Shown piece by piece: positions 75 through 24,394 of a DNA stretch of 26,027 nucleotides. The stretch is taken from positions 1-26,027 of the IMG/VR virus record IMGVR_UViG_3300030106_007162; one strand, written 5' to 3'. The position numbers and the translations under genes were made by a program. Below the pieces are notes generated by a model that was given only the letters and a program-made list of their open reading frames with translations, was not told the origin of the DNA and did no database searches. Each line of letters starts with the position of its first letter. Position 1 is the first letter of the stretch. This DNA comes from a virus.

Positions 75-325
75 CCTTTATCAGCCTCAGTGTAGAAGGT
101 TGATAAATGTTCAAACCGCTTACGTTCGGAGGCAAGACGGTTTCGCAAGAGGTCAGCCCGATCAGCATCACTGCTATCGCCGCTATCCCTAAGCTTTTCA
201 ATCTCTTGTGTAATTGCGTCTTCTCTATCTCTAAAGTCTTGGTGTAGGTCATAATAAAATTTTTTGTTTTTAAGCGCTAAGAATAGTTCTATTGACTTTA
301 ATATTGATTTAATTAGTGTGAACAT
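71..325 (-). CDS. small coiled-coil protein with hydrophobic N-terminus, possibly spanin-like
   Basis: This is a protein of about 84 residues if it starts at the ATG at 325; an alternative ATG at 367 would add 14 residues but overlap the upstream gene by 59 bases. The N-terminus carries a short hydrophobic/amphipathic stretch (MFTLIKSILKSIELFLAL). It is followed by a highly charged region rich in Glu, Arg, Asp and Lys with heptad-like spacing, predicted as a coiled coil. A short membrane-proximal segment followed by a charged coiled coil is typical of phage inner-membrane spanins (Rz-like), but the hydrophobic part is brief and interrupted by charges. The identity is therefore a guess. It lies third in a minus-strand operon with overlapping genes. 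Confidence 0.5.
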   Translation of the reverse strand: MFTLIKSILKSIELFLALKNKKFYYDLHQDFRDREDAITQEIEKLRDSGDSSDADRADLLRNRLASERKRFEHLSTFYTEADKG

Positions 326-503
326 TGGCTTTTGGGATGCAATCGAAGACCACGGTTTCTTTGCCATCTACAACTTCTTTAACTGAACCCCTCACTGTTT
401 TAGCGCAGTCAATTGCCCAGTTTAAAGCGCCATCTAAATTAGCATTGTAGCTGTGATGATATTCTCCTGCACGGTTGTATACTATATAGTGTTTATTCTT
501 CAT
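309..503 (-). CDS. small uncharacterised phage protein
   Basis: A 64-residue protein whose start overlaps the end of the upstream gene by 11 bases, which supports translation in one operon. It has a compact, soluble composition with an N-terminal aromatic beta-like segment (YIVYNRAGEY), a central helix (GALNWAIDCAKTVRG) and a C-terminal strand containing VVFDC. I do not recognise the family. The fold looks like a small alpha/beta domain without membrane segments. No catalytic motif is visible. Confidence 0.55.
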   Translation of the reverse strand: MKNKHYIVYNRAGEYHHSYNANLDGALNWAIDCAKTVRGSVKEVVDGKETVVFDCIPKANVHTN

Positions 504-829: not shown

Positions 830-2941
830 ATGGCGGGTGAAGGAAAAAATCAAGTAGCAAGCAGTCTTTTGGATTTGCAGCCTACTGCTGTGTTGGAATT
901 CTTTCAGTTATTTCCAGACCCCATAACTGAAGGCGCAAAACGAATGAATTTTCATGGTGGCACCTTATTTGGAGATGTGGTCACTTGGCAAGGGGTTCAA
1001 TATATACCAACAGCTTTAGAGGGAGAGGGTTTTGAAACTTTTGGTGATAAACGTCTAGCGCGACCAAAAATACGAATTTCTAATAAGAATAATCAAATAA
1101 CTCGGCTGCTTCAACTCCATAAAGACCTTGTTAACGCGCAAGTTGTCAGAAAAAAAACGTTCGTCAGATACTTGGATGATGTTAACTTTGATGGTGGGAA
1201 TCCGTTTGGGGCGGCAAATTCTGAAGCGGAGATAAGCTCAGAGACTTGGCTTATAGGACAAAAGCTTCAAGAGAATAGAGTTTTTGTAGAGTTTGAATTA
1301 AATTCGCCGCTGGATTTAGAAAGCTTTGATGTAAATTATCGCTCTATCATAGCTAAGTATTGTTATTGGCAATATAGGGGTGAGGGTTGCCGCTACGAAG
1401 GTCTGCCAATCGAACAGAGTAATGGTGAAACTTTCACAGACCCTACGGGTGGAATTGTTACGCCTGCATATCGCAGCTATAGCCAAGACCCACTTGTCGC
1501 TGGTAGCGATGTTGCGTCATTTTTCACGAACCCTGATGCTGAGTATGCTATAAATAGAGAGTATGAAAAAGGAGATGTAGTAATACTTACCAATAATAAA
1601 ATTTCTATTCAACCCTATCAGGGTTATGTAACCGACGAACCCGTAAAACTAAAAACAGTATATGTGTGCGTTAGTGGTAACAGTGGTCAAGCCCCAGAAA
1701 ATAACCCAACCTACTGGCAACAAGACGGATGTACTAAAAAGCTGGGCGCTTGTCGCAAAAGATTCAATGAAACTGAAGATTTAGGGTTTTACCAAAACTC
1801 GTCGGTCGCATCAGGATTTAAATACCTGAGTTTTTCAGGAACTGATACTTTGGAAAATGCCGATGGTTTCGCAGATGATGTATTAGCAAAAGCAGGCATA
1901 TTTTACAGCAATAAGCCGCAAATAACAGGTATATTCACGGCAACTGGAGAATGGACTGTTGCGGGATGGGTAAATGCAAACAATCTGTCCAGTGAGGTCG
2001 CAGGTATTCTTAGCACCACAAAAAACACTGGCAACAATGGGGGTTTATATGATTTTCTAAACATAACCCTAATATCAGGAAAGCAAGGCAGGGAGGACGA
2101 AATGCAAATCCCTGGAAATGTCGGAGCGTTTTATCGATCTGATGTAGAGGTTACTTTTGAGGCACTTAACCGTCCCGAAGAAGCTGTTGTTGGCCCATTT
2201 GACATAGAAGTGGACGGTTTCCCTGCTCGCGATGACGCTGAAACTTTTGACTTTGGCTCAGTGCTGAGTCCAACTTGGTACTTTTATGCCATAACAAACG
2301 AGGGTAAGGGTACTCTTAATCCAGATTGGGAAGACATAACTTATGGAACACGCTTAAGAAGTTACGTTGGAAATGGTCCGCTACTTAACAAAATTGAAAC
2401 TAAAAGAAACAAACTGTTTAAAAATCAGGAAATTAGAAATTTAAGTGGTTTTGTCCCGCAGCACTTTATGTTGGGGGGTATCCCATATAACACGGGATCA
2501 GGTCACGCTTCCATGAACGGTAAACTCGGCCCATGGGCTATTTGGAATAGGTCTTTAAATGACGAAGAAATAGACTTCTTATACAAAGATATAGAAAACC
2601 CTATTGGAACCCGTAACGAGCAGGTTATTAATTTTGTACCTCGCCCTTTCCATGAATGCGTTGGCCAACGCGCTGGCATAACGGGCATAGTTAATGGGAG
2701 TGGCTTAATCGCTTGGTGGGATATGACCACGGGAGACATCGGCGGCAATGTAACGGGCTTGGTAGATAAATCTGAGAACAATTATTTCTTAACTGGGTCG
2801 GGCTTTTACGGCACTGGTCAACATGATTTTGTTGAACTAGATGTTTTACAAAAAATTAAAAACCCAAGCTCACCATACCCACGCTTCGGTGGATACCCAG
2901 GAACAGATGGATTTGCATATGGAGAAGGTTCACAAGTTTAA
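830..2941 (+). CDS. lambda gpL-like tail-tip protein with inserted carbohydrate-binding and LamG-like domains
   Basis: The 703 residues align in style with phage minor tail protein L, which joins the tail tube end to the tip and, in lambda, binds an iron-sulphur cluster. Residues 1-190 show the gpL core, ending in YCYWQYRGEGCRYEG. Cys178 and Cys187 (C-x8-C) and Cys301 and Cys308 (C-x6-C) match the paired cysteine spacing I recall for lambda gpL. The canonical C-terminal end FGGYPGTDGF is at about 685-698. Lambda gpL is only about 230 residues, so most of this protein is insertion. Between the Cys pairs (about 240-300) is a segment resembling CBM5/12 domains (YEKGDVV, TYWQQDGC). After Cys308 comes a concanavalin-like LamG domain (about 330-590, ending WAIWNRSLNDEEIDFLY). 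A truncated second LamG onset (GLIAWWDMTTGD) follows at about 623. It probably exposes sugar-binding surfaces on the tail tip. Confidence 0.82.
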   Translation: MAGEGKNQVASSLLDLQPTAVLEFFQLFPDPITEGAKRMNFHGGTLFGDVVTWQGVQYIPTALEGEGFETFGDKRLARPKIRISNKNNQITRLLQLHKDLVNAQVVRKKTFVRYLDDVNFDGGNPFGAANSEAEISSETWLIGQKLQENRVFVEFELNSPLDLESFDVNYRSIIAKYCYWQYRGEGCRYEGLPIEQSNGETFTDPTGGIVTPAYRSYSQDPLVAGSDVASFFTNPDAEYAINREYEKGDVVILTNNKISIQPYQGYVTDEPVKLKTVYVCVSGNSGQAPENNPTYWQQDGCTKKLGACRKRFNETEDLGFYQNSSVASGFKYLSFSGTDTLENADGFADDVLAKAGIFYSNKPQITGIFTATGEWTVAGWVNANNLSSEVAGILSTTKNTGNNGGLYDFLNITLISGKQGREDEMQIPGNVGAFYRSDVEVTFEALNRPEEAVVGPFDIEVDGFPARDDAETFDFGSVLSPTWYFYAITNEGKGTLNPDWEDITYGTRLRSYVGNGPLLNKIETKRNKLFKNQEIRNLSGFVPQHFMLGGIPYNTGSGHASMNGKLGPWAIWNRSLNDEEIDFLYKDIENPIGTRNEQVINFVPRPFHECVGQRAGITGIVNGSGLIAWWDMTTGDIGGNVTGLVDKSENNYFLTGSGFYGTGQHDFVELDVLQKIKNPSSPYPRFGGYPGTDGFAYGEGSQV

Positions 2942-3326
2942 AACACTCAAGAGTGCATTCCGCAAGATTGAGGAGATAGGGGACCAGAATGCCACGATTG
3001 AAGCTTGCGGATTCATTGGTTTTGCTGAAGAAGATCAATCTTTTATTGTAAAGGAAGAGGACAATAGTTCGCCTTCTCCTAGTGAATTTTTTCTAATTGA
3101 CCCAATTAATTATCTTTTATTTAAGGATAAATATGAAATGGTGGGAGTTTTCCATAGCCATATGATTGGCGATGAAGAGCCTTCAGAATTCGACATTAAA
3201 ATGGCTGAAAATTGTTGCCTGCCGTTTCTAATTTATTCTTTAAATACAAAAAAAATACATATTTATGAGCCACAAAAAGTCGAATGTAATGTAAACATAT
3301 TGAGAAGGATGAAGGCACTCGTATGA
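2907..3326 (+). CDS. lambda gpK-like JAMM/MPN metallopeptidase (tail assembly), lacking the NlpC/P60 domain
   Basis: A putative zinc metallopeptidase of the JAB/MPN family. From the ATG at 2907 it has 139 residues. The full JAMM signature is present: Glu32 in IEACGFI, then His83-Ser-His85, seven residues, Ser93 and Asp96 (HSHMIGDEEPSEFD). Lambda gpK fuses this domain to an NlpC/P60 cell-wall hydrolase; here the protein ends after the JAMM domain. The gene lies between L-like and I-like genes, the canonical lambda order. The chosen start overlaps the upstream gene by 35 bases and has AGGA just upstream; starts at 2919 or 2841 are possible. Its TGA overlaps the next ATG (ATGA). The likely role is maturation or assembly of the tail tip, perhaps acting on the I-like protein. 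Confidence 0.85.
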   Translation: MDLHMEKVHKFKTLKSAFRKIEEIGDQNATIEACGFIGFAEEDQSFIVKEEDNSSPSPSEFFLIDPINYLLFKDKYEMVGVFHSHMIGDEEPSEFDIKMAENCCLPFLIYSLNTKKIHIYEPQKVECNVNILRRMKALV

Positions 3327-3985
3327 CGACTATAAAATTACATGGACTTTTAGCGAAAGAGTATCAAGACCAATTCGTTTTAAATATCGCAAAACCCCAA
3401 GATGTTGTCAGAGCAATCGATTGCAATAGAAAGGGTTTTCTTAAACGATTCAATGAACTCAAAAGAGAGGGATTTCACTATGATATAATCGTTGACAGGG
3501 GTCACATATCTAAAAAAATAAAACAAGTTGATTTAGTGCCTGTAATAGTTGGATCTGGCGCTATAGTTGCAGGAATCGCGGGAATATTTGGCGGGGGCGC
3601 ACTCGCTACTGCGGGCGCCACTCTGGCCGTTGGTGCGGGAGTCGCCATGTTAAGTAAAGCATTAAAGCCAAAGCCCGAGCAAAGACCTGACGTAGGGGGT
3701 ACAGCCGCCACGGATAGTGGCCCAGCCGCCAACGATGAACCCGTTACATTTCAATCAAGGGCAGCAGTCGCATCGATGGTTTTTAATAATGTGGCTAACA
3801 TTGCATCACAAGGAGACCCAGTGCCTATTGGCTATGGGCGATTAAAGATTGGATCTTCAGTTGTTCAAGCAACAATCAAATCCTTTCCAATGTCACACAA
3901 GACTTCACAAGCCTTTAATCGAAATCCTTTTAACGTGGAAGGTCAAGTAGATGTCATGCAAGAAATCTATAGCGCTGGGGACTAA
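3323..3985 (+). CDS. lambda gpI-like tail assembly protein with ubiquitin-like N-terminus
   Basis: A 220-residue protein in the position of lambda gene I. Residues 1-65 form a beta-grasp (ubiquitin-like) pattern starting TTIKLHGLLAKEYQDQFVLN, as in gpI homologues. Residues about 72-112 are a Gly/Ala-rich hydrophobic segment (VPVIVGSGAIVAGIAGIFGG onward), also typical. The C-terminal third contains the family signature DPVPIGYGRLKIGSSVV. GpI-like proteins are needed for tail-tip assembly and pair genetically with the JAMM peptidase; ubiquitin-like and JAB pairs in phage tails are established in comparative genomics. The gene joins its neighbours by ATGA upstream and TAATG downstream, so translation is probably coupled. 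Confidence 0.85.
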   Translation: MTTIKLHGLLAKEYQDQFVLNIAKPQDVVRAIDCNRKGFLKRFNELKREGFHYDIIVDRGHISKKIKQVDLVPVIVGSGAIVAGIAGIFGGGALATAGATLAVGAGVAMLSKALKPKPEQRPDVGGTAATDSGPAANDEPVTFQSRAAVASMVFNNVANIASQGDPVPIGYGRLKIGSSVVQATIKSFPMSHKTSQAFNRNPFNVEGQVDVMQEIYSAGD

Positions 3986-6900
3986 TGAAGCATATTAATA
4001 AAAAGATAAGGCTTGCTGGCGGTGCAAGTTACTTGAGAGCGAGCCGACGAGGAGGAGCAGCGGCCACCCGCGCACCGCAGGGCTTTCGTAATAGAGGTCG
4101 CAGCGACGGTGGCGGTGGTGGCGGTGGTGGCGGCGGTGGTGGAAGCACCCCCAAAAAGAACACCAAAAACAATTCTAAAGGCCCCGAGATTATACCGCCT
4201 GTTTATTTGCCTCCACAGCTTGGCTCACAACAATATGGAGCATCTCACAGTTACGCAGAGACAATTGACTTGCTGACTGATGGCCCAATCGCTGGAATAG
4301 TAAATCAAAATGGCTTGATTTGTGATGGTGGCAATATTTTACAAGGTGTATATCTTGATGATACCCCTGTTGCTGTCACAGATAATAACACGCTTAAGGG
4401 TTACTTTGACTTGGGATCAGCTACTGATCCAACAGGCGCTCTGCAATTTAACGATAACAAGCTGATTTCAGGATTCTTTGAGGAACTGAAAGGTGTTGGA
4501 AATTTAGGGGGGGCTAACGGTTGGAACCCAACTGCGCCGCAGTCTTTGGTTACGATGGGAGTGAAGTGGGGAGGCCCTCGCCCAATACGAATTCGTAATA
4601 ATATAGGCACTTACAAACTTTTTACCCACACAAGAGCTGGAAGTTGGCCAGTGCTTAGAACGGGAGGCCACTTTAACGCAAACTACGATGATTACCAAAC
4701 TGTCTGCCTTTACACAGACAACGCTACCGTACAGGATTCTAAATTCATGTTTACTATCGGTAATAATGTCTGGAACGTTCACCTTTGGGGTCAACACATG
4801 GCGAGCAGCGCTAGGCAACACCTAAAGTATAGTCCGTCCGCATTAACACCCTCAGAGCAAAATGGTAATCCAAAGTGCGGTTTACAGGCTAATTTGGATT
4901 TAATTTACGATAACTTTTACTCTCAAACAGACAATAAACACCAAAGAGAATTAGCAAGAAGGGTTTTGGCAAGATTGGGAGATGGATACCCCGAACAACC
5001 ACTTGGGCAGCGATTAAAAGATGTTTTAAATGAAAGTTCCAAGCGCAACTGTCATGTTATTCTGAGGCCAGATAAAACACAGAACGGCATCGCTGGGATG
5101 AACTTATTGAGTGGTGGCAAACTAATGGATTACAGCTTCAAGCTGTTCAATTCCGAAGGTAAAAGCGTATTCGCAGGCATGGATGATGTCTATGTTTATG
5201 ATTTTATTTGTCCAGAAATAAACAGTGATGGGACACTTACGGGCCAAGTTGAAGGATTTATAGTTGTATCTTTTAAGTGGGCGGAAGGGCAGTGGAAGGG
5301 TGGTAACTGGGGCAAAGTAAACGCGAACTGGGGGCGAGCGTATGGGGTTTCGGATAAAATAACCGATGCCTTTAGAACCACTTCATCCCTTAATTACAGC
5401 AGGGATCTGCCGACAGCTAACGGTATTAATACTTTAAAATTTAATTACTCAAATGTTTTGGCGGAATTCCGTGAAGGTAATGAGGATCAGATGCCTCTAA
5501 AGTATTTCAACCATGTGTTTATTGATCATGTTTATGATAAGCCTTTGTACGGGCCATTTAAACCAGGTAGACCTGCTCAAACCGTATCCACAAACAGGAA
5601 CATGCTTACTGCGCCACGCTCAAGAATAGCGACGGCGAACGGACTTCCAGTTAATGAGGGTAGTGAGGACACAAGGGGTAGAGGAAGGCATAGGTATGAT
5701 TACGCGAATTGGGCAAAAGATTCACTGCCAAATTTTGAAGAGGCAGCGATTACGCAAACACATGTCGTCCTCAACCCAAATGTTGAATCTGTTTTCGTTA
5801 CTTTAAATGTCGGGCAGCTTAGAGACACCCTGCAAACCCAGTTGCGTGGAGTAAGGGGCGCTCTTGGTGAAGATGGCACACTAAACCCAGGAGCAACATT
5901 TCCATCCATATTGAACGTTAGTGTAACAACTGGATTGATTGATGAGAATGGCACTAAAACGCCGAGTAAGACGCGAAATTATCGAATCATGGCGTTAATT
6001 GAATCTCAGACGCTAATTGATATAGGCAATCCCGATGGGATACCTGATACCTACACCTATGTAGAACCACTTGGGGATGCCGAAAGCTTGGTGACGCCAA
6101 TACCACTGCCCGCCCTAAGTCAAGAAAATTTAAGGGCGCACAGAGACTCTGATTTAAATAAAACTATAATTATAAAACCCGACGAACATATAGCGATACA
6201 AAGGTATGTGGAGGTTGCAAGATTATCCACAGAAACTAATTCTGTTTTAATTGCCAAATCAGTTGATCTTAACAAAATTACAGAAATCATACCTGTTAAT
6301 TTAACTTACCCATTTTCTACTCTTGTGGGGACTAAACTAGATTCCCGCTCATTCGGTAGTATACCTGTTCGCAGTTTCGATTGTAAGCTTAAGAAAGTAA
6401 AAGTCCCAAATAACTACAAGCCTATGGCGCTTAATGGGCAAGACAAAAGATATTTTTTGACCCAAGGAGCTTTCGATGACGCACTAAAAGAAAACAAATT
6501 AATTTACGATGGTGATTGGGATGGATCATTCGATGGAGAGTTACAGTGGACAGACAATCCCGCGTGGATTCTGTATGATCTACTTACCAGCACTCGATAC
6601 GGTTTGGGGCAACACATAGATGAAACCACAATAAACAAATGGCAACTATATGAAATAGGTCGTTTTTGTGATGCTGTCGATGATAATGGTTATTTCCTCG
6701 GTGTGCCAGATGGTCACGGCGGAAGAGAGCCTCGCTTTTCCTGCAACATAGTTTTTGATGCGGGTATGAAAATATATGACGCCATAAACACCATAGTTGG
6801 ACTGTTTAGGGGCGCAGTTTTCTTTAATAATGGGGAAATTAATTTTGTTGATGACCGCCCAAGAGAAACCGTGAATTTATTCACGAACGAAAGCGTCTTG

Positions 6901-8583
6901 GATGGAATGTTCCACTATTCAAACAATAGGCGCGATCAAACTTTTAACTGTATTGAAGTTACATACACAGATAGGTTCGATAGTTACATACCAAAGGTCG
7001 AAGTGGTTGAGGATGAGGAAGATATTAGGCAGCGTGGTTACTTCAAAAAGAAGATGGAGGCGGTTGGCATCACCTCTAGAGCAATGGCAAGAAGAGCCGC
7101 AGAGCATCAAATTTTCAGCACAACGAAAGAAAATCAAACTGTTGCTTTTGAAGCGGGTCTAGAGAGTCTACTGTGCCAACCTGGAGACCTAATTGTCGTT
7201 GAGGATGAACTAAAAACACTAAAGGAAAACTTTGGTAAGATTTTAGAGGTTAACGTGGCGGATGAAACAATAAGGCTGAGTAATAAATTTAACTCCTCGG
7301 ACATGACGGGACGGTTAACAGTGTATACGCCGACAGGTAGAGACACGATAACTGAAGTCGAAGCTGTGGCAGAGAGGAATCGGCAAAGATCGATAGGCTT
7401 TAATATTACAGGTAGTATGCCTAATACCGTCCACAACTATCTAAGGGGAGAATACAATTTCTCTGGATATACTCCTGGGTATTCTTACGCAACGGGCCAG
7501 TATGATCCAACACCTCCTGAAGCTTCGGGGGCTTTTGAAGAATACGCTCTTTATACGGGAACTGGAATCGGTGATAATTTAAATATGCTTTATTTCTCAA
7601 CCGCATTTACTGGTTGGGTTTTCGCAACTGGGGATCAAATTAATGTTGATAGTGATGTCCAAAGCATATTTATAGCGAGTGGAACGGGAAGCACACTGTA
7701 TGATTTGGGAACTGGCTTCATGAATAATTATGACACAAACGAAGCGGATAGAAGGGGTGAATCATATTGGGCAAGCGTATCGGGAATGTTTTCTGGTAAT
7801 AATATTCTAGATACCATAACCCACGGACTTCTGCCTTCGGAAGTAATGCTTACAACGCCATCGCAGACGACGGTGTTAAGTGTTACTGGGGAAATTACCC
7901 TAAAGGATTACGGCTGCTTAGTTTCAGGATTTGTCCCAGAGCAGGCACAAATGCTTCCATTCTTAAAACTGGGAAGCACAGCTAAATTTGAAATCAAAGA
8001 GAAAGATCCATTCATCTACAAGGTTCTAGCTTTAACTGAAACTAATCCGAATCAATTCCTATTATCTGCTACCAAATATGATACTGGCAAGTGGGCCTTG
8101 ATTGAGGATAATATATCGATAGAAAACAAAGTAAATACTTTTGCTTACAGGGTGGCGCAATGTGTTGGCGATATTTGCTATACCACTTTAGAACCCCCGA
8201 AATGGACTGGGTTATCCACGGGAGACGGAACAGATTTTCAAACGTTTTTTATTAGTGGAGATTTCACTGACCCAAATGGGGGACCACCTATTGCCGACTC
8301 TAACGCCACAGGATTCCATGTTACATTGCAAGGCCCACGTTACAGGCACGAACAAATCGTATCAGCCCCAAGCCCTCCAGCCAATGGTTTTTGTGTAAAA
8401 TTCGATAATCTTAGCTCAATTGGTCAGTATGGCCTAAAGGCAGTTGCCTTAGGAAACCAAGGCTCCACAAATACTACGGAAGCATATTTTAACTCGTCAC
8501 CTGCTCAAACTGGAATGTTCGTTCTTTTTGAGGAAAATTTACCGTTTGGTAGAAGTTGGGCAGACGGAATTTTAATACAATAA
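3985..8583 (+). CDS. lambda gpJ-like tip attachment / host-specificity protein
   Basis: A 1532-residue central tail-tip protein that would contact the host receptor and form the baseplate hub. The N-terminal half carries gpJ hallmarks: SYAETIDLLTDGPIAGIV at about 90-107 and VYLDDTPV. The middle contains the tip-attachment core with NPAWILYDLLTSTRYGLGQH (about 860-880), a Gly- and Asp-rich region, FNCIEVTYTD and the QPGDLIVVEDE hub motif. The C-terminal 450 residues are beta-rich with repeated T/G/Y segments and would reach outwards. It is longer than lambda gpJ (1132 residues), partly because of an inserted stretch at about 110-680. The N-terminal 60 residues are Arg/Gly-rich and include 12 consecutive glycines. 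The ATG overlaps the stop of the I-like gene (TAATG). Confidence 0.88.
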   Translation: MKHINKKIRLAGGASYLRASRRGGAAATRAPQGFRNRGRSDGGGGGGGGGGGGSTPKKNTKNNSKGPEIIPPVYLPPQLGSQQYGASHSYAETIDLLTDGPIAGIVNQNGLICDGGNILQGVYLDDTPVAVTDNNTLKGYFDLGSATDPTGALQFNDNKLISGFFEELKGVGNLGGANGWNPTAPQSLVTMGVKWGGPRPIRIRNNIGTYKLFTHTRAGSWPVLRTGGHFNANYDDYQTVCLYTDNATVQDSKFMFTIGNNVWNVHLWGQHMASSARQHLKYSPSALTPSEQNGNPKCGLQANLDLIYDNFYSQTDNKHQRELARRVLARLGDGYPEQPLGQRLKDVLNESSKRNCHVILRPDKTQNGIAGMNLLSGGKLMDYSFKLFNSEGKSVFAGMDDVYVYDFICPEINSDGTLTGQVEGFIVVSFKWAEGQWKGGNWGKVNANWGRAYGVSDKITDAFRTTSSLNYSRDLPTANGINTLKFNYSNVLAEFREGNEDQMPLKYFNHVFIDHVYDKPLYGPFKPGRPAQTVSTNRNMLTAPRSRIATANGLPVNEGSEDTRGRGRHRYDYANWAKDSLPNFEEAAITQTHVVLNPNVESVFVTLNVGQLRDTLQTQLRGVRGALGEDGTLNPGATFPSILNVSVTTGLIDENGTKTPSKTRNYRIMALIESQTLIDIGNPDGIPDTYTYVEPLGDAESLVTPIPLPALSQENLRAHRDSDLNKTIIIKPDEHIAIQRYVEVARLSTETNSVLIAKSVDLNKITEIIPVNLTYPFSTLVGTKLDSRSFGSIPVRSFDCKLKKVKVPNNYKPMALNGQDKRYFLTQGAFDDALKENKLIYDGDWDGSFDGELQWTDNPAWILYDLLTSTRYGLGQHIDETTINKWQLYEIGRFCDAVDDNGYFLGVPDGHGGREPRFSCNIVFDAGMKIYDAINTIVGLFRGAVFFNNGEINFVDDRPRETVNLFTNESVLDGMFHYSNNRRDQTFNCIEVTYTDRFDSYIPKVEVVEDEEDIRQRGYFKKKMEAVGITSRAMARRAAEHQIFSTTKENQTVAFEAGLESLLCQPGDLIVVEDELKTLKENFGKILEVNVADETIRLSNKFNSSDMTGRLTVYTPTGRDTITEVEAVAERNRQRSIGFNITGSMPNTVHNYLRGEYNFSGYTPGYSYATGQYDPTPPEASGAFEEYALYTGTGIGDNLNMLYFSTAFTGWVFATGDQINVDSDVQSIFIASGTGSTLYDLGTGFMNNYDTNEADRRGESYWASVSGMFSGNNILDTITHGLLPSEVMLTTPSQTTVLSVTGEITLKDYGCLVSGFVPEQAQMLPFLKLGSTAKFEIKEKDPFIYKVLALTETNPNQFLLSATKYDTGKWALIEDNISIENKVNTFAYRVAQCVGDICYTTLEPPKWTGLSTGDGTDFQTFFISGDFTDPNGGPPIADSNATGFHVTLQGPRYRHEQIVSAPSPPANGFCVKFDNLSSIGQYGLKAVALGNQGSTNTTEAYFNSSPAQTGMFVLFEENLPFGRSWADGILIQ
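4108..4143 (+). repeat. GGN microsatellite encoding twelve consecutive glycines
   Basis: A run of GGT/GGC codons encodes residues 42-53 of the gpJ-like protein, immediately after an Arg-rich segment (SRRGGAAATR). Trinucleotide repeats of this kind can change length by slippage without breaking the frame. It would behave as a flexible linker at the N-terminus. Confidence 0.8.
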
Positions 8584-15898: not shown

Positions 15899-16650
15899 TG
15901 ATTAAGCACCGAAATCAACTTGCGAGCCTCCTTAGCTGGGATGTCTCCAAAGGACACCCACTTCTTCGCTGACTCATTCCTGTAGGTTTCATCCTTCCAC
16001 AAGTCCCTCAAAAGCTCCTTGCAGCCCTCAAAGGAGTCTACTTGATGTTTGTCCCTCAGAGTCTTTTGAAGCAGCCCTACGGGCGTAATAGGGGCAACAG
16101 CTTCAGCTTCTACAGCCTGACCCGCACCTTGAGATTTATCGATCTCATCTGCACCCACAATATGAATATTCAAGTAGTTGCGAACACAGCGCACGAATGC
16201 CCTGTTGCAGGCTATTGTTTCAAGGAATTTAGCACAAAAGGCATCAGTATTGGCTAAAGTGGCATTGGCTACGTCCTGATATTCGGTCGTCCAATCACCA
16301 ACACTCTCATAATTTTTCTGCCAGTAAATTGTGCATTTTGCTGTGACGTAACCATCTGAAACATTATTTACCTGAAACTCGACACCAGCATAGCCTCTAA
16401 GCTTTGCTAACTCCTTAATGCCGCCGAGCATAATCAAAAGCTGTTTATCATCCAAGCCTTCGGTAGAATTTGGCACAGGCTTGTTGCGAGCATCAAACCA
16501 GCCTTTATTAGGGTAAAGGAACTCAGGCTTAATCATTGAGCGCCAATCAATCGAACCGTCCTCATTAAAAACATAATCTACGTTTTCAAGTAGGCCATCA
16601 TCGTTGCGCTTGTAAATATCTGGTCCGTATAATTTTTTAGTTTTGCTCAT
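15895..16650 (-). CDS. conserved phage protein of unknown function, possible recombination-associated
   Basis: A 251-residue soluble protein. Visible blocks are LLIMLGGIKELAKLRGYAGV at about 70-90, a beta pair with VTAKCTIYWQKNYE, then an Ala-rich helix (DVANATLANTDAFCAKFLE) and a highly patterned ACNRAFVRCVRNYLNIHIV segment at about 145-165. The last 70 residues form a separate, linker-connected domain ending in KEARKLISVLNQ. The alternation of beta strands with an NRAF-x-R-x-VRN helix is loosely like single-strand annealing proteins (Erf/Rad52 type), but no defining motif is present. I would call it unknown. It overlaps the upstream glycosyltransferase gene by 14 bases and the GNAT gene by an ATGA. 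Confidence 0.6.
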   Translation of the reverse strand: MSKTKKLYGPDIYKRNDDGLLENVDYVFNEDGSIDWRSMIKPEFLYPNKGWFDARNKPVPNSTEGLDDKQLLIMLGGIKELAKLRGYAGVEFQVNNVSDGYVTAKCTIYWQKNYESVGDWTTEYQDVANATLANTDAFCAKFLETIACNRAFVRCVRNYLNIHIVGADEIDKSQGAGQAVEAEAVAPITPVGLLQKTLRDKHQVDSFEGCKELLRDLWKDETYRNESAKKWVSFGDIPAKEARKLISVLNQ

Positions 16651-17776
16651 AGATATAAAAGTGGTCTAATTCTTTCCAATAATCAACACTATCCAGCACT
16701 TTATTATTGGAGTCAAGACCTTTTTTCCAATGAGCGTAACTTAAATATTCTTTATTGCCCTCAAGTAGTCTTTTGGAGGAGAAAAACTTAGCATTCGCGC
16801 TTAGCCCGTCTATTTTTGATCGCTCGGGATTGTATAATCTCACAAGAACATCGAAGTATTTGTTCCTTATTTCACCCAAGTCTTTCTTGTCTTTGACAAG
16901 CAATGTACATGGGATATTCCAGTTTTTTAATGTTTTAAAATAGCTTTCGGGTATAATATCCCAAGACGGATCTACAAAAATAAATAAACCTGTGATATTC
17001 GCTGAAAAATCCTTGAGTCCGTGGGGTTGGATTAGTTGATCGCTTATGATTGTAACTTTGTGGTTTTTCGCGTATTGCAAAAACGCAGCTTCATCGTAAC
17101 CATAGTCAATTCTCAAAAACAGAGACTGCCCCTGCGCCAAATTAATATTAGTAAATGAAGTTGGAATAACCTCTAGCGCAACCTGCCCAAAATTTGCGCC
17201 TACATGCTTGGTGGTAAAATTAATTGATCCATCGACCCGCAATAACTTTAATACCGCCGCCGCGATTTCTTCAGCTTTAATTTTATTAATCTGTTGTCTT
17301 GGATCTTGAATATTGAAGCATGGCTTGCCATCCCACTCGGGCGCTAAATTTATGTTTAATTTACTAGCTGAAAAAATAGGGCGATTTGTGTTTGGAAAAG
17401 TATTACCAAAAATATTTACAGTTGGAATATTTTTCGCACTTGCAGCATGAGAAAGAACGCCATCAGAACCCAAATGCAAAAGTGAATTGGATAAAATGAA
17501 ACATTTCTGTTTAAATGAAACGTTTAAAATATTATCTACTCCTGCGATTGGTTTCGAATCGCCAAGTTGAATAACTTTTATTTTATTAAGCTTCAAAACA
17601 GGCTTCAATAAACTGAGAACGATATCGTAATGTTTGTAGTGTTTTGCTGGTTTGTTTTCTTCCGTTGCGATAGTTATATATTTATCTGCGACAAGGGGAA
17701 AAAAGTGATCCTTGATGATGGGGCGTGAAATTTTTACACCTAAGTTTTTGGCGTATTCTTCTAGTAAGTGGGACAT
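16637..17776 (-). CDS. GT9 (heptosyltransferase-like) C-terminal lobe plus an unknown domain
   Basis: A 379-residue protein. Residues 25-180 match the nucleotide-sugar-binding C-terminal lobe of glycosyltransferase family 9: a strand around VIQLGD, then FILSNSLLHLGSDGVLSHAA and NIPTVNIFGNTFPNTNRP, the counterpart of the ADP-heptose-binding region of heptosyltransferases. The N-terminal lobe expected of GT9 is missing here and is found instead at the C-terminus of the upstream gene, two bases away. Residues about 190-379 form a domain I do not recognise, alpha/beta in pattern (LFLRIDYGYDEAAFL, KVTIISDQLI, GLFIFVDPSW). A role in assembling or modifying a surface or phage glycan is likely. The short gap (TAG-GA-ATG) implies translational coupling or a frameshift between the two genes. 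Confidence 0.65.
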   Translation of the reverse strand: MSHLLEEYAKNLGVKISRPIIKDHFFPLVADKYITIATEENKPAKHYKHYDIVLSLLKPVLKLNKIKVIQLGDSKPIAGVDNILNVSFKQKCFILSNSLLHLGSDGVLSHAASAKNIPTVNIFGNTFPNTNRPIFSASKLNINLAPEWDGKPCFNIQDPRQQINKIKAEEIAAAVLKLLRVDGSINFTTKHVGANFGQVALEVIPTSFTNINLAQGQSLFLRIDYGYDEAAFLQYAKNHKVTIISDQLIQPHGLKDFSANITGLFIFVDPSWDIIPESYFKTLKNWNIPCTLLVKDKKDLGEIRNKYFDVLVRLYNPERSKIDGLSANAKFFSSKRLLEGNKEYLSYAHWKKGLDSNNKVLDSVDYWKELDHFYIYEQN

Positions 17777-17778
17777 TC

Positions 17779-19668
17779 CTATAGTAGTGAAAATTGATGG
17801 GTGTTCACACCATTGTGAATGTATGCGGCACTCTTTTGTGTGGTGGTGTTCGGATAAAAAACCATTTCAAATATGCCCTCTTGTGGGCCAATCCCCTCTA
17901 ACGCTAAACAATTTTCAAGAAGTGGGCTGTACGGTAAGCACTTGTGTATATTTGGGTTGTCTTCTATATATTGAAAATATTCAGGCTTAGTAAAAAAATA
18001 AATATTGTAATTTTTATATTGTTTTTTGAGATTATTTATAAGCGCATTAACTAAAAAGACATCCGTTTCGCTCTCTTGCAAAACAATACCAATTCTGCGC
18101 CCCTTGTCATCTGAATCCAGTAAATCTATAAGATCAGGAGCATTATTTTGTGCATTTTCTTGAGCAGCAACGTTTTTGAAATGTTGCAGCACACTTTTCG
18201 GATCATTGCCAGCCCTTAGGTGTGCCATCCAGTGTTTAAATCCTTGCGTGTTTTTATCAACGGTATCATTAAGAATATTTTTGTAAATATCAATAAGGAA
18301 CTCCTCTTGATTAATGTATTTTTCTTTTGGCTGATATTCGGGATTTAGTTTAACGCGATTCAAGTCATAATCATAATTAACTTCTGGCATATTGTCGATT
18401 ATATCCTCAAGCTGGCGACCAATAACTTCTGTAGAAAAATTGTCTATTACCCATTCCCTAGATTTTTGCTCGCGAAGACGCCTATCCTTCTCGTCCATTT
18501 TATATACCTCGATTAATTTTTCCGCCATATCTTCTGAATCTGTGGAAGCTTTAATGAATTGCGTCCCAGGTTCTCTATACTCATGCCATGCGAGGGGAAT
18601 ACCCCCACTTTCCTCAGTTGCGCTATCTTCGCCACAGGAATAATTAGTAACCAAAGTAATTAATTCTGTTAACTTTGCCTCTTGAATGGGTATTTCTTGA
18701 CCGCCGCTAGTGAAGGGGTGGCAATAAACATCCATCAAATTGTAAATCTCATTTAACTGAGCCTCGCTAACTCCAGCGCTTGGATTTGTTGTATTTTGAG
18801 ATTTTTTGCTGCCGCACAAATTACAGTCTTGCTCTTGTCCTGTGAATGGTCTTACTGAATAACCCTTGCATTTATTACAAACATAAGTTGTTAATATGTC
18901 AGTGGGATTAATACCTTTTTCCTCAACGATTCTTGGAATATCCCAGCCCTCTGACCAGTGCGTATGCAAGAGTAGTTTTGCATTAGGAACTGAAACCTTT
19001 AACTTTTTAAAGCTGTCCAAAAGATTTGGAACACTTTTGCGTAATTGATTCCTAAAAACATAACCTACTATGTACTCGTTAGATAGGTTGTGCGACCGTC
19101 TTAGCTTTAAGCGTTCATCGTCTGTAAACCTATAGAAATGACTGGTATCTAATGATCCTCTTAAGGTTTTAACGTGATCATAACCGATTTTTTTCATCGC
19201 CCTTTCAGCGAAAGAGGCCCAAACGTAATAATGCTTTACCTTTGGGGCAAAATCTATAGCTGACTGCAAAATGGGTAGGCTGTCCAAAGTTGTCCAAATC
19301 ATGGTGTTTATCTTGTCCCACCAAGGTTTTTTGTTATATCCATTAAATGCCCAGATATCCTCTATACCAATGTAAACATCAGGTTTAAATTCTTTAATTG
19401 CTAGATCCACTAAACTTTGCCCATAGCCCTCGGCACGTTGCTGCTCGGGATTCAACGTCTGTAATTTACCTTGGTCGGGAAGGGAGCCTCTACACTCCCA
19501 TGGAACATTTTGGGTCTGAGGGTCTTGCCAGTGTACACCATTGGCTAATTCGACAAGGTTATATTTGCCCGTGTCGTAAAGATAGCGCATTATGTTTCTT
19601 TTGTTTTTGCCAAAACCTGTGAAGGCTCTACAAAAATTAGAGTGAATTAGAACAGTTTTCTTTTTCAT
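17779..19668 (-). CDS. multidomain glycosyltransferase: GT4-like, zinc-ribbon insert, DUF4214-like, GT9 N-terminal lobe
   Basis: A 629-residue protein. Residues 1-430 look like a GT-B retaining glycosyltransferase (group 1/GT4): an N-terminal strand with FCRAFTGFGKNKRNIMRYL, VGYVFRNQLRKSVPNLLDSF at the second lobe, and HPFTSGGQEIPIQEA (316-331) in place of the E-x7-E nucleotide-sugar site. A four-cysteine ribbon, CNKC at 264-267 and CNLC at 282-285, is inserted in the donor-binding lobe. Residues 455-505 resemble DUF4214 (FLIDIYKNILND, then GFKHWMAHLRAG). Residues 525-629 look like the N-terminal lobe of GT9 (RIGIVLQESETDVFLVNALI, YNIYFFTKPEY) and stop just where the C-terminal lobe should begin. 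The start overlaps the upstream stop (TAATG). The target glycan is unknown. Confidence 0.72.
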   Translation of the reverse strand: MKKKTVLIHSNFCRAFTGFGKNKRNIMRYLYDTGKYNLVELANGVHWQDPQTQNVPWECRGSLPDQGKLQTLNPEQQRAEGYGQSLVDLAIKEFKPDVYIGIEDIWAFNGYNKKPWWDKINTMIWTTLDSLPILQSAIDFAPKVKHYYVWASFAERAMKKIGYDHVKTLRGSLDTSHFYRFTDDERLKLRRSHNLSNEYIVGYVFRNQLRKSVPNLLDSFKKLKVSVPNAKLLLHTHWSEGWDIPRIVEEKGINPTDILTTYVCNKCKGYSVRPFTGQEQDCNLCGSKKSQNTTNPSAGVSEAQLNEIYNLMDVYCHPFTSGGQEIPIQEAKLTELITLVTNYSCGEDSATEESGGIPLAWHEYREPGTQFIKASTDSEDMAEKLIEVYKMDEKDRRLREQKSREWVIDNFSTEVIGRQLEDIIDNMPEVNYDYDLNRVKLNPEYQPKEKYINQEEFLIDIYKNILNDTVDKNTQGFKHWMAHLRAGNDPKSVLQHFKNVAAQENAQNNAPDLIDLLDSDDKGRRIGIVLQESETDVFLVNALINNLKKQYKNYNIYFFTKPEYFQYIEDNPNIHKCLPYSPLLENCLALEGIGPQEGIFEMVFYPNTTTQKSAAYIHNGVNTHQFSLL

Positions 19669-20147: not shown

Positions 20148-20173
20148 GTAAGATTGTATGAAACAATCTCCCT
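20148..20173 (-). promoter_or_regulatory. hairpin between a Shine-Dalgarno-like GGGAG and the start codon
   Basis: On the minus strand GGGAG (20172-20168) overlaps the stop codon of the DUF1501 gene. It is followed by the inverted repeat ATTGT/ACAAT (up to AGATTGT/ACAATCT, 20169-20151) with a five-base loop, then TAC and the ATG at 20147. Linear spacing from GGGAG to ATG is 20 bases, too long. With the five-pair stem folded, the effective spacing falls to about five. Alternatively the full seven-pair stem hides the GGGAG. Confidence 0.45.
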
Positions 20174-21383
20174 AATTCAATATTTCTTTTATGATTTGAC
20201 CCTTCTGGGCCACCGTAAACGGCCTGCCGTTTGGGGAAAAATGCTCTTCTTCTACATCAATACCCAAAAGATGTGCGGTGGTGCAGTTTAGATCTGCGGC
20301 GTCATGAGATTTACTGGTAACCTTAATGGCTTTTTTGTCGCTTTCACCAAGCACCATTCCACCCTTAATGCCACCGCCTATCATCAATGCTGAATAACAC
20401 TGGGGGTGGTGATCGCGCCCACTGTTGACGTTTATACGCGGAGTCCTTCCAAAATCTGTGGTTAGCGTAATGAGGGTGCTGTCCAATAAGCCGTCCGCTT
20501 CCAAGTCTATAACCAATGCGCTCAATGCGTCATCAAGTTCTTTTAGTTTGTCATCTAATTTTGTAAAATTATCCACATGCGTATCCCAACCACCATTATT
20601 TATTTCTATAAATTGAATGTCACCCTTAATGAGCCTCTTTGCTAATAAGCAGCCCTGACCAAGCCTTGTTTTGCCGTAAGCATCTCTTTTTTTCTGACTC
20701 TCTCTTGATAGATCAAATAAATCTAAATCTTTTGACTTGAGAAACTTGATTGTGTCATCATAAAAATCTGAATATTCTTTTACAATGGGGTATTTTTTAG
20801 ATACAATGTTTGCATTAAGGCTACTTAGCAAAGTTAAGCGCTCCTGTAAATGCCTATCCGTTCTTACGTTCTTTAATCCCGCGTTCGGGTCAACAATGGG
20901 CAATGGCGACTTGATACGCGGTAGAAATCCAGATTTTGGATGAGCAGAAGAGCCAGAAATCAATACATAATCGGGCATTTCCCTCTCCCTATCCTTTAGG
21001 TGTGCCGCCCATGAGCCGAGACTTGGATGAACTATTGTGCCTATCTGCCGATAAGAAGTTCGATTTAGGTATTGTGCTGGACCATGAGCGCCTGTTTTGG
21101 AACTCATTCCCCTAATTACGCAAATTTTATCCATCGTTTTAGCAAGCTTGGGTAGGCGATGGCCGATTTGGATTCCATCTACATTTGTTGCAATCTTGCT
21201 CGTTTGACCCTTTACCTCATCATCATCTTTTGGATCAAATGAATCTATGTGGCTCATACCTCCATCAAGATAAATGTAAATTACATTTTTTACCTTAGGA
21301 TTTGCCTGCTTTGCTGCGCCCTTGAGAGCGGTAAGCCCAAAGGCTGAAGTGGCTAAGCTATTTATAAAAAGTCTACGGTTCAT
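20172..21383 (-). CDS. DUF1501 protein (sulfatase-like, Tat-exported), PVC-bacteria family
   Basis: From the ATG at 21383, which overlaps the upstream TGA (ATGA), the protein has 403 residues. An ATG at 21422 would only add 13 residues before the signal. The start MNRRLFINSLATSAFGLTAL is a twin-arginine-like signal peptide. The DUF1501 domain follows at full length: VIYIYLDGGMSHIDSFDPK (about 34-52), GAHGPAQYLNRTSY, HPSLGSWAAHL, NNGGWDTHVDNF, TLTTDFGRTPRINVNSGRDH and GGGIKGGMVLGESD, ending NGRPFTVAQKGQIIKEIL. All these blocks are typical of the alkaline-phosphatase-like superfamily member found mainly in planctomycetes and verrucomicrobia. The chemical function is not established. Its operon partner is the DUF1549/DUF1553 gene, the usual arrangement in those bacteria, but here it sits in a phage. 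Confidence 0.9.
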   Translation of the reverse strand: MNRRLFINSLATSAFGLTALKGAAKQANPKVKNVIYIYLDGGMSHIDSFDPKDDDEVKGQTSKIATNVDGIQIGHRLPKLAKTMDKICVIRGMSSKTGAHGPAQYLNRTSYRQIGTIVHPSLGSWAAHLKDREREMPDYVLISGSSAHPKSGFLPRIKSPLPIVDPNAGLKNVRTDRHLQERLTLLSSLNANIVSKKYPIVKEYSDFYDDTIKFLKSKDLDLFDLSRESQKKRDAYGKTRLGQGCLLAKRLIKGDIQFIEINNGGWDTHVDNFTKLDDKLKELDDALSALVIDLEADGLLDSTLITLTTDFGRTPRINVNSGRDHHPQCYSALMIGGGIKGGMVLGESDKKAIKVTSKSHDAADLNCTTAHLLGIDVEEEHFSPNGRPFTVAQKGQIIKEILN

Positions 21384-23113
21384 GTTATTAATTTCATTTC
21401 GTGAGAGTTCAATAAAACCCACACAATGTCGTAAAGTAATGCGCCAGCCAGCGCTTTCTTTTCTCCTGCTGTTGGCATTCTACCCAAGAAAGAATAAAAC
21501 AGTATCTCCAAGGATTTCTCTTTTGGTGCGCTCTGAGCTTTTTTCATTGCAAAGCTAATTTTAGAACCCAATGTACTTGCTAGTGGGCTGTTCATCAAAA
21601 CTAGAATTTGCGTAATGTTCCCATCTGTATCACCGTTCTGAATTAATTCTCTATCCGAGCGCCCAAACTCAATTAGAAAGTTGGCATTTTTAGAATTTTC
21701 AAACACATGTGATGAGCGTATCGCCAGTAAAGAGCCAAGTTTTGGGGCGCTATCATAATACTTCCTGTTCAAGGAATTATATTCATTGTGTTTTTTGACA
21801 ACCGTTGCGGCGTCCATTTCAGCAAGGTCAGAGAAAACATTTAGATATTGTTCATCGTAGCGCTTTGGTTGCCAGCCATCAGGATCACCGACATGAAGAG
21901 TTACAAGAGAATCCCAGAACTGGGGCGCCGTCATTCTTCTCAGCGCTGGACCTCTAAATTTACCCTCGGCATCAGCCTCGCTCTGATAAAATCTTGTGTT
22001 TAGCAAGATTCTATTAAAGTTCTTTGTGTCATAGTTAACTTTTTTAATTACTGTGATTAAATACCTGAGTAATTCATCGTTTTTACTCTTAACGAGTTTC
22101 TCACCCTGCGTAATGGTATTTAGGCCATCAATCAAGGGGAAACCAAAAGCCCTATTCCATAATCTGTTAACGATATTTGCTGCAAAAAAAGGATGCTCAT
22201 CAGCCGTCAGCCAATTAGCAAAATCTTCTCGTAGTTTTGTTCTATCCCTATGCTCTCTAATATGCTTACCAAATACGGTTCTCGCCTTGACCGTTTCATT
22301 TGGCTCTCCATCCCTATACTGATAATCGTGCGGTAATTTTAATGTCTTTTTTTGGTTATCGTTAACCCCATACTGATACCCATACCTAATAAATTGGTTG
22401 ACCTTATTTATAGTTCCCCTGCTGTCACCCTTATCCATTGCGGTTGCCTCCTCCCTTATTCTTTTCAAGTGTCCATTATCACCTTTACGATTACGGGTAT
22501 CAAGCGGCCCAAAAAATGCGGTTAGATTATAGTAATCAAACTGACTCCAATCATCGAAAGGGTGGTCATGGCATTGAGCGCAACTTATATCCATGCCAGC
22601 AAATGCCTGAAATGTATTGCTGACATTATCCAACAACATTCCCTCGTCGCGTAAAAAATATCCAACCTCAGGATTCTCCCAAATACGACCCTTTGCCGTA
22701 AGCATTCTCTTAACCATTACATCATAGCTGACGTTATCGCTAATCTGATCCTTTATCCAAAAAATGTAATTAACGCCATTTACATTATTACTAAGTCTTT
22801 TTTTTATCCTGAGCAAATCTGCCCAAAAGTTAAACATATTTTCAGTATAGCCGCTACTATCTAGGAGCTTATCAATTAACTCTTTGCGTGAGGTAAAAGA
22901 CTGACCCTCATCATATGTTGGAATGCGCCCAACAATATCTATGTATGCCCGCCGAATAAACTTTTCATCCGAAATCGGCTTTGGCATTTCTTGACGCTGC
23001 CTCTTTAGTTGATTGGCGATTATTACGTCAATTTTATTACTGTAATTTTCAGAGCCTAAGCCGCCAAAAGTTGTAATAAAAAACAAGACTAGACCCGTAA
23101 AGAGCTTTTTCAT
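21380..23113 (-). CDS. DUF1549/DUF1553 protein with CxxCH motif (exported), PVC-bacteria family
   Basis: A 577-residue protein with an N-terminal signal peptide (MKKLFTGLVLFFITTFGGLG). Residues about 25-200 are the DUF1549 (PSCyt2) domain: ISDEKFIRRAYIDIVGRIPT, LIDKLLDSSGY, FWADLLRI and a CAQCHDHPFDDW block with Cys178, Cys181 and His182, the canonical c-type heme signature. Residues about 285-575 are DUF1553 (PSD1): FAANIVNRLWNRAFGFPLID, ILLNTRFYQSEA, GPALRRMTAPQFWDSL and a closing YDIVWVLLNSHEM. It is shorter than many PVC homologues because it lacks an N-terminal PSCyt1 domain. It probably acts in the periplasm or at the cell surface as partner of the DUF1501 protein, with which it shares an ATGA overlap. 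The family function is unknown, and haem binding is inferred from the motif. Confidence 0.9.
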   Translation of the reverse strand: MKKLFTGLVLFFITTFGGLGSENYSNKIDVIIANQLKRQRQEMPKPISDEKFIRRAYIDIVGRIPTYDEGQSFTSRKELIDKLLDSSGYTENMFNFWADLLRIKKRLSNNVNGVNYIFWIKDQISDNVSYDVMVKRMLTAKGRIWENPEVGYFLRDEGMLLDNVSNTFQAFAGMDISCAQCHDHPFDDWSQFDYYNLTAFFGPLDTRNRKGDNGHLKRIREEATAMDKGDSRGTINKVNQFIRYGYQYGVNDNQKKTLKLPHDYQYRDGEPNETVKARTVFGKHIREHRDRTKLREDFANWLTADEHPFFAANIVNRLWNRAFGFPLIDGLNTITQGEKLVKSKNDELLRYLITVIKKVNYDTKNFNRILLNTRFYQSEADAEGKFRGPALRRMTAPQFWDSLVTLHVGDPDGWQPKRYDEQYLNVFSDLAEMDAATVVKKHNEYNSLNRKYYDSAPKLGSLLAIRSSHVFENSKNANFLIEFGRSDRELIQNGDTDGNITQILVLMNSPLASTLGSKISFAMKKAQSAPKEKSLEILFYSFLGRMPTAGEKKALAGALLYDIVWVLLNSHEMKLIT

Positions 23114-23116
23114 GTC

Positions 23117-24391
23117 TTACTTTTTCTTTTGTTTTTCTTTCATCACCTCATCATGACGCTTCATAAAAGCCTCATGAGATGGACCCGCCATATAAAGAGT
23201 CTTACCGTCTTTAGTCTCATGGGAGTGAAATCCCTTAAGACCCAGTTTTTTTGCGTCCTTTAGAGCCTCGTCCTTGGTTTTAAAGTAATGCTGCATTACT
23301 TCGGGGGCGCCCTGCGCCCTTTTAAGTGCTTCTTGAGTGGGCCTATCCTTATCCCCAGGTTTAGCAGGCTTGTAGTTTTTGCCCATTCTTTGTTTTTTCT
23401 TCCTGATGTTCTCCCATAAGGAAGACATTGCTTCTGCCGCCCAGTTTTTCTCTGAAGCGGAAACTATATCTTGGTCAGCCTTCCTATAGGAATCCTTAAC
23501 TTTGCCACCTCTTCTCATTTTTAGGAACATATTTACGCGAGCCATTGCCCAGCCATGTCTGGACATATTGGGTCTATGTGAGGTGCTAAACGCCCCCGAA
23601 CCTCGACGATATACTTTCTTTAACTGAGAAAGCGTTACCTTCTTTGAGTGTTTGGAATTATGTTCTTTAACTTTTTCTTTTAGCGCATTGGTTGTTTTTT
23701 CGCTAAATGTAATTTTACCACCCTTTTCTCCTGCACTACCCTTGGGATTTTTCTTTGAGCCTTTCTTTCTTTCGCTAGGCTCAGCAGGGGTTTGAGCGCC
23801 ACTTTTGCGACCGCTTCGCTTAGCAGCCTCAGAGACCTCTGCCTCTGGCGCATTGGCCAACTCGGGATTCATGGCTAATAGCTCGTCATGATCAAATAAA
23901 GTTTCACCATCCCACTCGTAATCATTCTCCACTGAACCCTCTACTTTTTTACCAGCCCTCCACTGTTTGCAAGACCAATACCGAGCTTTCCACTTTGGAC
24001 CTGGGTTATCACAATTATGCCTAGCCCTAAAACTCTTGCGACGGGCAGGATCATCCCTTTTGATTTCCATATTGGGGTCACCAAAATTAACTTTCACAAC
24101 ATTACCCTTTTCGTTTTTGACATAAACGGAGAATTTTTTCGGACCTTTTGGGGTCCTGAATGGCTTATTTAATGGCTTATTCTCATTTGCTGATTGCGAA
24201 AAAAATAAAGCTTCTGATGAGCCTTCCCCCACAATAAGCGAAGCGTTAGAGCGTTCTTTATTGAATTGAGAGTAGCAGACAGCGGCCCTCTGCTTGTTGT
24301 CTTTGAATTCATCCTTCTTGGATAGCTCCATCATGCAGCGATCCATGAATTTAGAATACTTTTCTCCGTTGTTTGGACTTGGAAGTGGCAT
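23117..24391 (-). CDS. multidomain basic phage protein with FGDP, RGxGAFSTSHRP and C-terminal HSH modules
   Basis: A 424-residue, very Lys/Arg-rich protein built from short modules often seen in marine phage proteins, some linked to capsid maturation proteins. Residues 1-45 have a Cys/Lys helix (KYSKFMDRCMMELSKKDEF, AVCYSQFNK). Residues 88-145 hold VNFGDPNMEIKRDDPARRKS followed by FRARHNCDNP and ARYWSCKQW. After an acidic and then basic low-complexity linker (about 180-225), residues 255-292 carry KKVYRRGSGAFSTSHRP and WAMARVNMFLKM. The last 55 residues contain KKLGLKGFHSHETKDGKTLY and an SHEAF motif. I do not know its function. The modular make-up suggests an internal or structural protein. 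It lies three bases after both neighbours' junctions, in the operon with the DUF1549 gene. Confidence 0.65.
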   Translation of the reverse strand: MPLPSPNNGEKYSKFMDRCMMELSKKDEFKDNKQRAAVCYSQFNKERSNASLIVGEGSSEALFFSQSANENKPLNKPFRTPKGPKKFSVYVKNEKGNVVKVNFGDPNMEIKRDDPARRKSFRARHNCDNPGPKWKARYWSCKQWRAGKKVEGSVENDYEWDGETLFDHDELLAMNPELANAPEAEVSEAAKRSGRKSGAQTPAEPSERKKGSKKNPKGSAGEKGGKITFSEKTTNALKEKVKEHNSKHSKKVTLSQLKKVYRRGSGAFSTSHRPNMSRHGWAMARVNMFLKMRRGGKVKDSYRKADQDIVSASEKNWAAEAMSSLWENIRKKKQRMGKNYKPAKPGDKDRPTQEALKRAQGAPEVMQHYFKTKDEALKDAKKLGLKGFHSHETKDGKTLYMAGPSHEAFMKRHDEVMKEKQKKK

Positions 24392-24394
24392 ATA

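Follow-up and report, generated by a model that had tools for sequence, protein, structure and literature searches.

A recurrent, mobile phage cassette encodes DUF1501 and DUF1549/DUF1553 proteins, a signature pair of planctomycete and verrucomicrobial bacteria

Bacteria of the Planctomycetes–Verrucomicrobia–Chlamydiae (PVC) group carry a module containing DUF1501 proteins (Kamneva et al. 2012, as cited in PMC4452313 and PMC4960237), a family described as lacking biochemical characterisation (PMC4452313). The gene neighbourhoods of PSCyt2, the DUF1549 domain, have also been described; PSCyt genes lie near sulfatases and their function is not known (PMC5615132). Rhodopirellula baltica encodes 41 each of DUF1549 and DUF1553 (PMC2754498), and planctomycete and verrucomicrobial genomes in general hold many copies of DUF1501 and DUF1549/DUF1553 proteins. 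Here we analyse the linear IMG/VR virus record IMGVR_UViG_3300030106_007162 (26,027 bases; the whole stretch is called the window), in which both proteins are encoded side by side among phage genes. No phage carriage of the pair is reported in the literature that we searched. The finding extends beyond the single auxiliary pair originally described, as the two genes belong to a recurrent, mobile and selected phage cassette of PVC signature proteins; the mechanism and the host proposed for it are inferences. The cassette and its borders in the window are as follows.

20172..21383, minus strand: DUF1501 protein (PF07394), 403 amino acids from the ATG at 21383, with a twin-arginine-like export start; invariant residues and PDB profile matches suggest the alkaline-phosphatase/sulfatase superfamily
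21380..23113, minus strand: DUF1549/DUF1553 (PSCyt2/PSD1) protein (PF07583, PF07587), 577 amino acids, with a Sec-like start and a CAQCH motif (C178/C181/H182)
21380..21383, minus strand: ATGA overlap of the two genes, read directly in the sequence
23117..24391, minus strand: modular lysine-rich protein of 424 amino acids with DUF5824 (PF19141, E=6e-9) and phrog_7595 (E=6e-13) modules, the third cassette gene in the window lineage
20148..24394: the cassette as a whole, absent from the empty site of contig G354:C260
19668..20147, minus strand: flanking gene of the conserved backbone, 159 amino acids, 69% identical in G354:C260
24395..25492, minus strand: flanking gene of the conserved backbone, 365 amino acids, 30% identical in G354:C260; same gene order in contig G011

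The earlier note had described a full-length pair, joined by an ATGA overlap, with export signals and intact motifs, and each of these points holds. PF07394 matches the DUF1501 protein with E=2.2e-97 over profile positions 2-390 of 390 (327 bits against a curated cut-off of 27), while PSCyt2/DUF1549 (PF07583) and PSD1/DUF1553 (PF07587) match the partner with E=4.7e-39 (1-207 of 209) and E=1.7e-24 (2-241 of 244), respectively, so that all three profiles are covered nearly end to end. Neither gene contains an internal stop codon, the window proteins have every one of the motifs LDGGMSHID, GGWDTH, FGRTPR, GRDHHP and CAQCH, and both the export signals and the motifs are conserved across viral homologues. 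The term full length needs qualifying in one respect: both domains of the DUF1549/DUF1553 protein are complete, but at 577 amino acids the viral protein is shorter than most cellular ones (about 590-830 amino acids).

Four scans of IMG/VR recovered more than 60 viral contigs with the pair, the longest of 224,703 bases. The two genes are nearly always adjacent, in the order DUF1549/DUF1553 then DUF1501, usually with an intergenic gap of no more than 21 bp; one contig (L249) has the reverse order, and a few contigs have an extra DUF1501 paralogue. This second, divergent paralogue stands beside the pair at L004:11203-12624 and in L195, L223, L225 and L226, and upstream of it in L011. When the PSCyt2 model was run on 37 further contigs, 36 held exactly one copy, the exception being a cut contig with a gene fragment at its edge; each of four PVC genomes, in contrast with the single copy per viral contig, gave 14 to 101 blast matches. 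The carriers are phages of different kinds, among them T4-like phages, other myoviruses and lambda-type phages. Thus T4 gp23 is present in seven of them, their terminases comprise a strong T4-type set and a weaker-scoring set, contig G019 encodes a tail sheath, a baseplate and its own terminase, G023 a tape measure protein, and G011 (78 kb, related to the window) a phage minor tail protein. Sugar-nucleotide genes are also numerous in G011 between 38 and 66 kb (L053-L055), among them those for epimerases, GDP-mannose dehydratase, NeuB and a DegT aminotransferase. None of the isolated phages in INPHARED encodes either protein, and the gp23 of the carriers is about 33% identical to that of cyanophages, indicating that the nearest isolated phages are distant.

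The boundaries of the cassette are defined by related phages that lack it. G354:C260 is collinear with the window genes at 15.4-20.1 kb and 24.4-26.0 kb and with G011, in which the upstream side of the window pair is repeated. In G354:C260 the genes for the 159- and 365-amino-acid proteins are about 59 bp apart, whereas the window has 4.25 kb between them, which is exactly DUF1501, DUF1549/DUF1553 and the 424-amino-acid gene. A second site is that of T4-like phages, where small genes (c2 and c10) flank the pair and an amidase and gene c12 stand on opposite sides of it; L283, L284 and L285 have the same neighbours and no pair, the interval being 138 bp in L283 versus about 3.26 kb in L280. At this same T4-like site the pair of G043 is only 42-57% identical to its nearest group-A copy, whereas the neighbouring genes are mostly 60-94% identical. 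The two empty sites show that the cassette is a discrete one.

It might be argued that the pair is an artefact, either of chimeric assembly or of bacterial DNA misclassified as viral, as the contigs are metagenomic and chimeric scaffolds do occur. Conserved pairs, however, recur in independent assemblies and backbones, contigs of up to 225 kb hold a single copy, and the T4-like empty sites and the collinear empty site in the window lineage, which itself argues against chimerism, make this explanation extremely improbable. Indeed the flanks of the window pair are collinear with, and nearly adjacent in, an independent cassette-free contig, which, as far as assembled contigs can show, supports a phage-borne auxiliary pair, as described earlier, rather than a chimera or a decayed prophage. 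The cassette has the attributes of a phage moron or auxiliary metabolic gene (AMG) cassette: phage hallmarks around it, empty sites, and cellular relatives in PVC bacteria.

The history of the pair was addressed with trees that included cellular copies, as the earlier note had proposed. In the DUF1549/DUF1553 tree 28 viral representatives fall on one side of a branch with a support of 88, and in a reduced tree 26 of those 28, the window included, group with a support of 95, which places the window inside a viral radiation. A second viral group (eight rows) and one single viral row are placed among cellular sequences. A single clade of all viral copies was rejected (approximately unbiased test, p=0.0036), and therefore phages gained the pair at least twice. 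The window protein shares roughly 50-98% identity with its viral kin, and 42% with its best full-length true cellular match in searches of genomes from one verrucomicrobial order (387) and from the phylum Planctomycetota (392). PVC-like bacteria were presumably the source. The description of the pair as a PVC signature is right in that its cellular relatives occur in PVC bacteria, but DUF1501 alone was also found in the control genomes of Caulobacter and Deinobacterium.

The two proteins co-evolve: their mirror-tree correlation is r=0.959 over 47 pairs (0/999 permutations), to which shared descent contributes. Both genes are under purifying selection, with ratios of nonsynonymous to synonymous substitution (dN/dS) mostly of 0.03-0.15 for closely related phages, more distant pairs being near saturation. 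The two genes are thus inherited together, have been inserted en bloc into unrelated phage backbones and are kept intact by selection.

The DUF1501 gene probably starts at the ATG at 21383, rather than at the mechanical GTG at 21422, because the ATG yields the twin-arginine-like start MNRRLFINSLA and its ATGA shares the TGA stop of the DUF1549/DUF1553 gene. All 18 of 18 viral homologues share R3, R4 and F6 of this start. When cellular homologues are included, the invariant residues are D50, H100, T109, D267, F311-G312-R313 and H325; all of them are kept in the window protein, which also has every one of the 23 invariant columns in a 25-member alignment of viral and cellular sequences. T109 is no more than a candidate nucleophile. 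When the AlphaFold model of DUF1501, which is weak (predicted local distance difference test score, pLDDT, 51), was compared with the PDB by Foldseek, LtaS, YejM/PbgA and sulfatases ranked first at a template modelling (TM) score of about 0.3. Matches to the PDB from a viral-only profile were designed-repeat artefacts and were set aside; with a broader profile all 27 of 27 weak chain matches were to the sulfatase/alkaline-phosphatase superfamily. Profile comparison aligned the DUF1501 segment TLITLTTDFG with the sulfatase strand TLVIFTSDNG. The corresponding strand of sulfatases carries an acidic metal-binding residue. DUF1501 thus appears to belong to the sulfatase/alkaline-phosphatase superfamily, the fold matches being weak. 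A classical sulfatase label was dropped, as the formylglycine-type activation motif C/S-x-P-x-R is found neither in the window DUF1501 nor among the conserved columns.

In the partner protein C178, C181 and H182 are invariant, and all 119 viral locus copies, a count that includes contigs represented more than once, keep CxxCH; judging from this motif, the protein probably binds haem covalently. Its model is helical (pLDDT 76) and its fold gave no significant match in the PDB, where the candidate relatives showed only weak phycobilisome-linker-like and DUF4214-like similarity. This weak resemblance to DUF4214/phycobilisome-linker domains is in the C-terminus, and a glycosyltransferase nearby in the window (17779-19668) has a DUF4214 domain. 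Both structure models were built on narrow viral alignments, and a broader DUF1501 alignment would probably have improved that model. The invariant CxxCH raises the possibility of a redox role, in which the DUF1549/DUF1553 protein would be a c-type-haem electron carrier or peroxidase-like protein that aids host respiration or detoxifies peroxide during infection, DUF1501 being the partner dedicated to it. Four of 19 members have CCP_MauG matches (best E=0.01) that point the same way, but these are insignificant, the fold has no PDB match and DUF1501 resembles a hydrolase or transferase rather than a redox enzyme; we consider this role quite unlikely.

The genes around the cassette bear on its function. 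In the window these are:

830..8583, plus strand: lambda-type tail genes (L, JAB-domain protein, tail assembly protein and J), identified by PF05100, Prok-JAB and phrog_32, and J-like by tblastn
16637..17776, minus strand: glycosyltransferase family 9 (GT9)/heptosyltransferase-like protein (PF01075, E=7e-4, under the curated cut-off), same gene run
17779..19668, minus strand: group 1 glycosyltransferase (PF00534, E=9.5e-8) with a DUF4214 domain (PF13946, E=6e-4), same gene run

The tail genes, among which minor tail protein L matches PF05100 at 8e-41 in a Pfam search, agree with the earlier assignment of the pair to a phage with a lambda-type tail. A small protein at 71-367 (minus strand) clusters by similarity with the c2 proteins, whose genes immediately precede the pair in T4-like and L028-type phages. 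Downstream of the pair the minus-strand run continues with the group 1 glycosyltransferase and the GT9-like protein, and glycosyltransferase or heptose genes adjoin the cassette in the window and in G005. The pair has a peptidoglycan hydrolase gene no more than about 5 kb away, and often adjacent, in T4-like, G019-type, L028-type, L036-type and G034-type phages.

On these grounds we tentatively favour, at a little short of an even chance, a mobile moron cassette whose products, an exported enzyme and a haem-type partner, would modify host envelope glycans late in infection. Both proteins would be exported during infection, as their twin-arginine-like and Sec-like starts indicate: DUF1501 through the twin-arginine translocation (Tat) pathway as a folded, metal-dependent enzyme of the sulfatase/alkaline-phosphatase superfamily, and DUF1549/DUF1553 through Sec, probably with covalent haem at CxxCH. 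Together they may alter sulfated or phosphorylated (anionic) glycans of the host envelope, and the likeliest benefit would be that a surface layer is weakened or masked, so that progeny escape without re-adsorption or superinfection is blocked. The earlier proposal that an auxiliary pair acts on envelope or surface glycans stands as to the phage-borne pair, and its action on glycans is a reasonable reading of fold superfamily, export and neighbours. Several observations weigh against late envelope modification. The DUF1501 model and its PDB matches are weak, as given above; the amidase is 62-70 kb from the pair in G049 and G051; G011 yielded no such gene; and in further lineages the pair adjoins replication, portal or ribonucleotide reductase (RNR) genes. 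Universal linkage to lysis genes, with the pair as a member of the lysis module, was accordingly rejected, as it fails in G011, G049, G051 and others; the association holds as a tendency only. Contig L006 (171 kb, T4-like) has a run of heptose/sugar-type genes (5180-8048), which by sequence are heptosyltransferase-like, kinase-like and adenylyltransferase-like, inserted between its lysis genes and the pair.

The same superfamily assignment would also fit nutritional AMGs, the pair breaking down sulfated or phosphorylated poly- or oligosaccharides in the periplasm to supply the phage with carbon, sulfur or phosphorus. In freshwater Verrucomicrobia PSCyt genes, which carry carbohydrate-binding modules, are found near sulfatases (PMC5615132), and pair-carrying phages also encode other metabolic genes. 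The top neighbour families listed, however, include neither a transporter nor a glycoside hydrolase, and the position of the pair beside lysis genes in several backbones suggests late rather than metabolic timing, which makes a nutritional role somewhat unlikely.

The third gene introduces a further consideration. In seven members of a separately acquired clade, genes of the DUF5824/phrog_7595 type adjoin the pair, lie close to it or separate its two genes, making the 424-amino-acid gene a candidate third component; no such gene was found beside the pair in the T4-like group. It may be that the third gene brings the pair into virion assembly, the enzymes then acting on virion glycans or at entry rather than at exit. 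Such a role draws on the association of this gene with the pair in both the window lineage and the separately acquired clade, on their loss together and on the adjacent glycosyltransferases, but the export signals of both proteins and the T4-like arrangement make it very unlikely. A bolder version of envelope modification, which we regard as unlikely, is that the module, with three genes in some lineages (modular adaptor, haem-type exported protein and sulfatase-superfamily enzyme), embodies new chemistry that strips or alters anionic host-surface glycans, a receptor-destroying or release system working like viral neuraminidase and built from PVC signature proteins. If true, such a release system would reveal what these proteins do in PVC bacteria.

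For the PVC host that the note had suggested, the evidence is at most suggestive: no isolated phage in INPHARED carries the pair, and the best bacterial match is a chimeric scaffold. This match (55%), contig PBAI01000036 of the Roseibacillus SP52 metagenome-assembled genome (L070, PBAI01000036.1:1-7365), matches a T4-like phage contig at 99-100% identity for about 5 kb, contains ambiguous bases and jumps in GC content from 0.33 in its phage part to about 0.60 in a bacterial-looking part; it was discarded as a host link. G354:C260, the 31-kb cassette-free phage contig of the window lineage (L335-L337), was binned with a genome of the Verrucomicrobiales, the order that holds Roseibacillus. This contig is phage-like over its whole length without host flanks, and its GC content is about 0.39-0.45 versus 0.52-0.60 in the other contigs of the bin, so that the co-binning is only suggestive of a PVC host. 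Transfer-messenger RNAs (tmRNAs) of T4-like carriers are about 63% identical to verrucomicrobial, 52% to planctomycete and 53% to Escherichia coli tmRNAs, a resemblance that is only suggestive of a verrucomicrobial host because few phyla were compared. When 387 genomes from the order to which G026 belongs were searched at the DNA level, no spacer was identified among the matches inspected; these comprised tmRNA, brief stretches of conserved sequence and a single related phage contig. Many pair-carrying phages encode tmRNA (RF00023; L280:2395-2805, L322, L317, L318 and others), and the tags predicted by ARAGORN have 19-32 residues in several carriers versus 9-11 in the Verrucomicrobiales genomes examined.

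The phage copies offer a reduced form of a question that is posed in PVC genomes by many copies: a single co-evolving pair under selection, with presence/absence variants at two sites and few likely envelope targets. They also show how one accessory cassette comes, repeatedly, to be shared among phages that differ in tail type. Like the PVC module, the cassette consists of the same two families with export signals, in the order DUF1549/DUF1553 then DUF1501 that is seen in nearly all Verrucomicrobiota and Planctomycetota loci fetched. In contrast with that module, phages have one pair per contig where PVC genomes have many, the viral PSCyt2 protein is shorter, and no confirmed full-length cellular copy from the group-wide searches exceeds 42% identity to the window protein. 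DUF1501 resembles the alkaline phosphatase/sulfatase superfamily (sulfatases, LtaS and YejM/PbgA) in its weak Foldseek and profile matches and in the alignment over the metal-site strand, but C/S-x-P-x-R is missing from its alignment and TEFGRTP or TDFGRTP replaces DHG or DNG. As in phage moron and AMG cassettes, the block is discrete and optional, has moved between backbones and has bacterial relatives; it differs from them in being a two-protein unit, predicted to be exported, that recurs over unrelated backbones and in two lineages is accompanied by a modular third gene.

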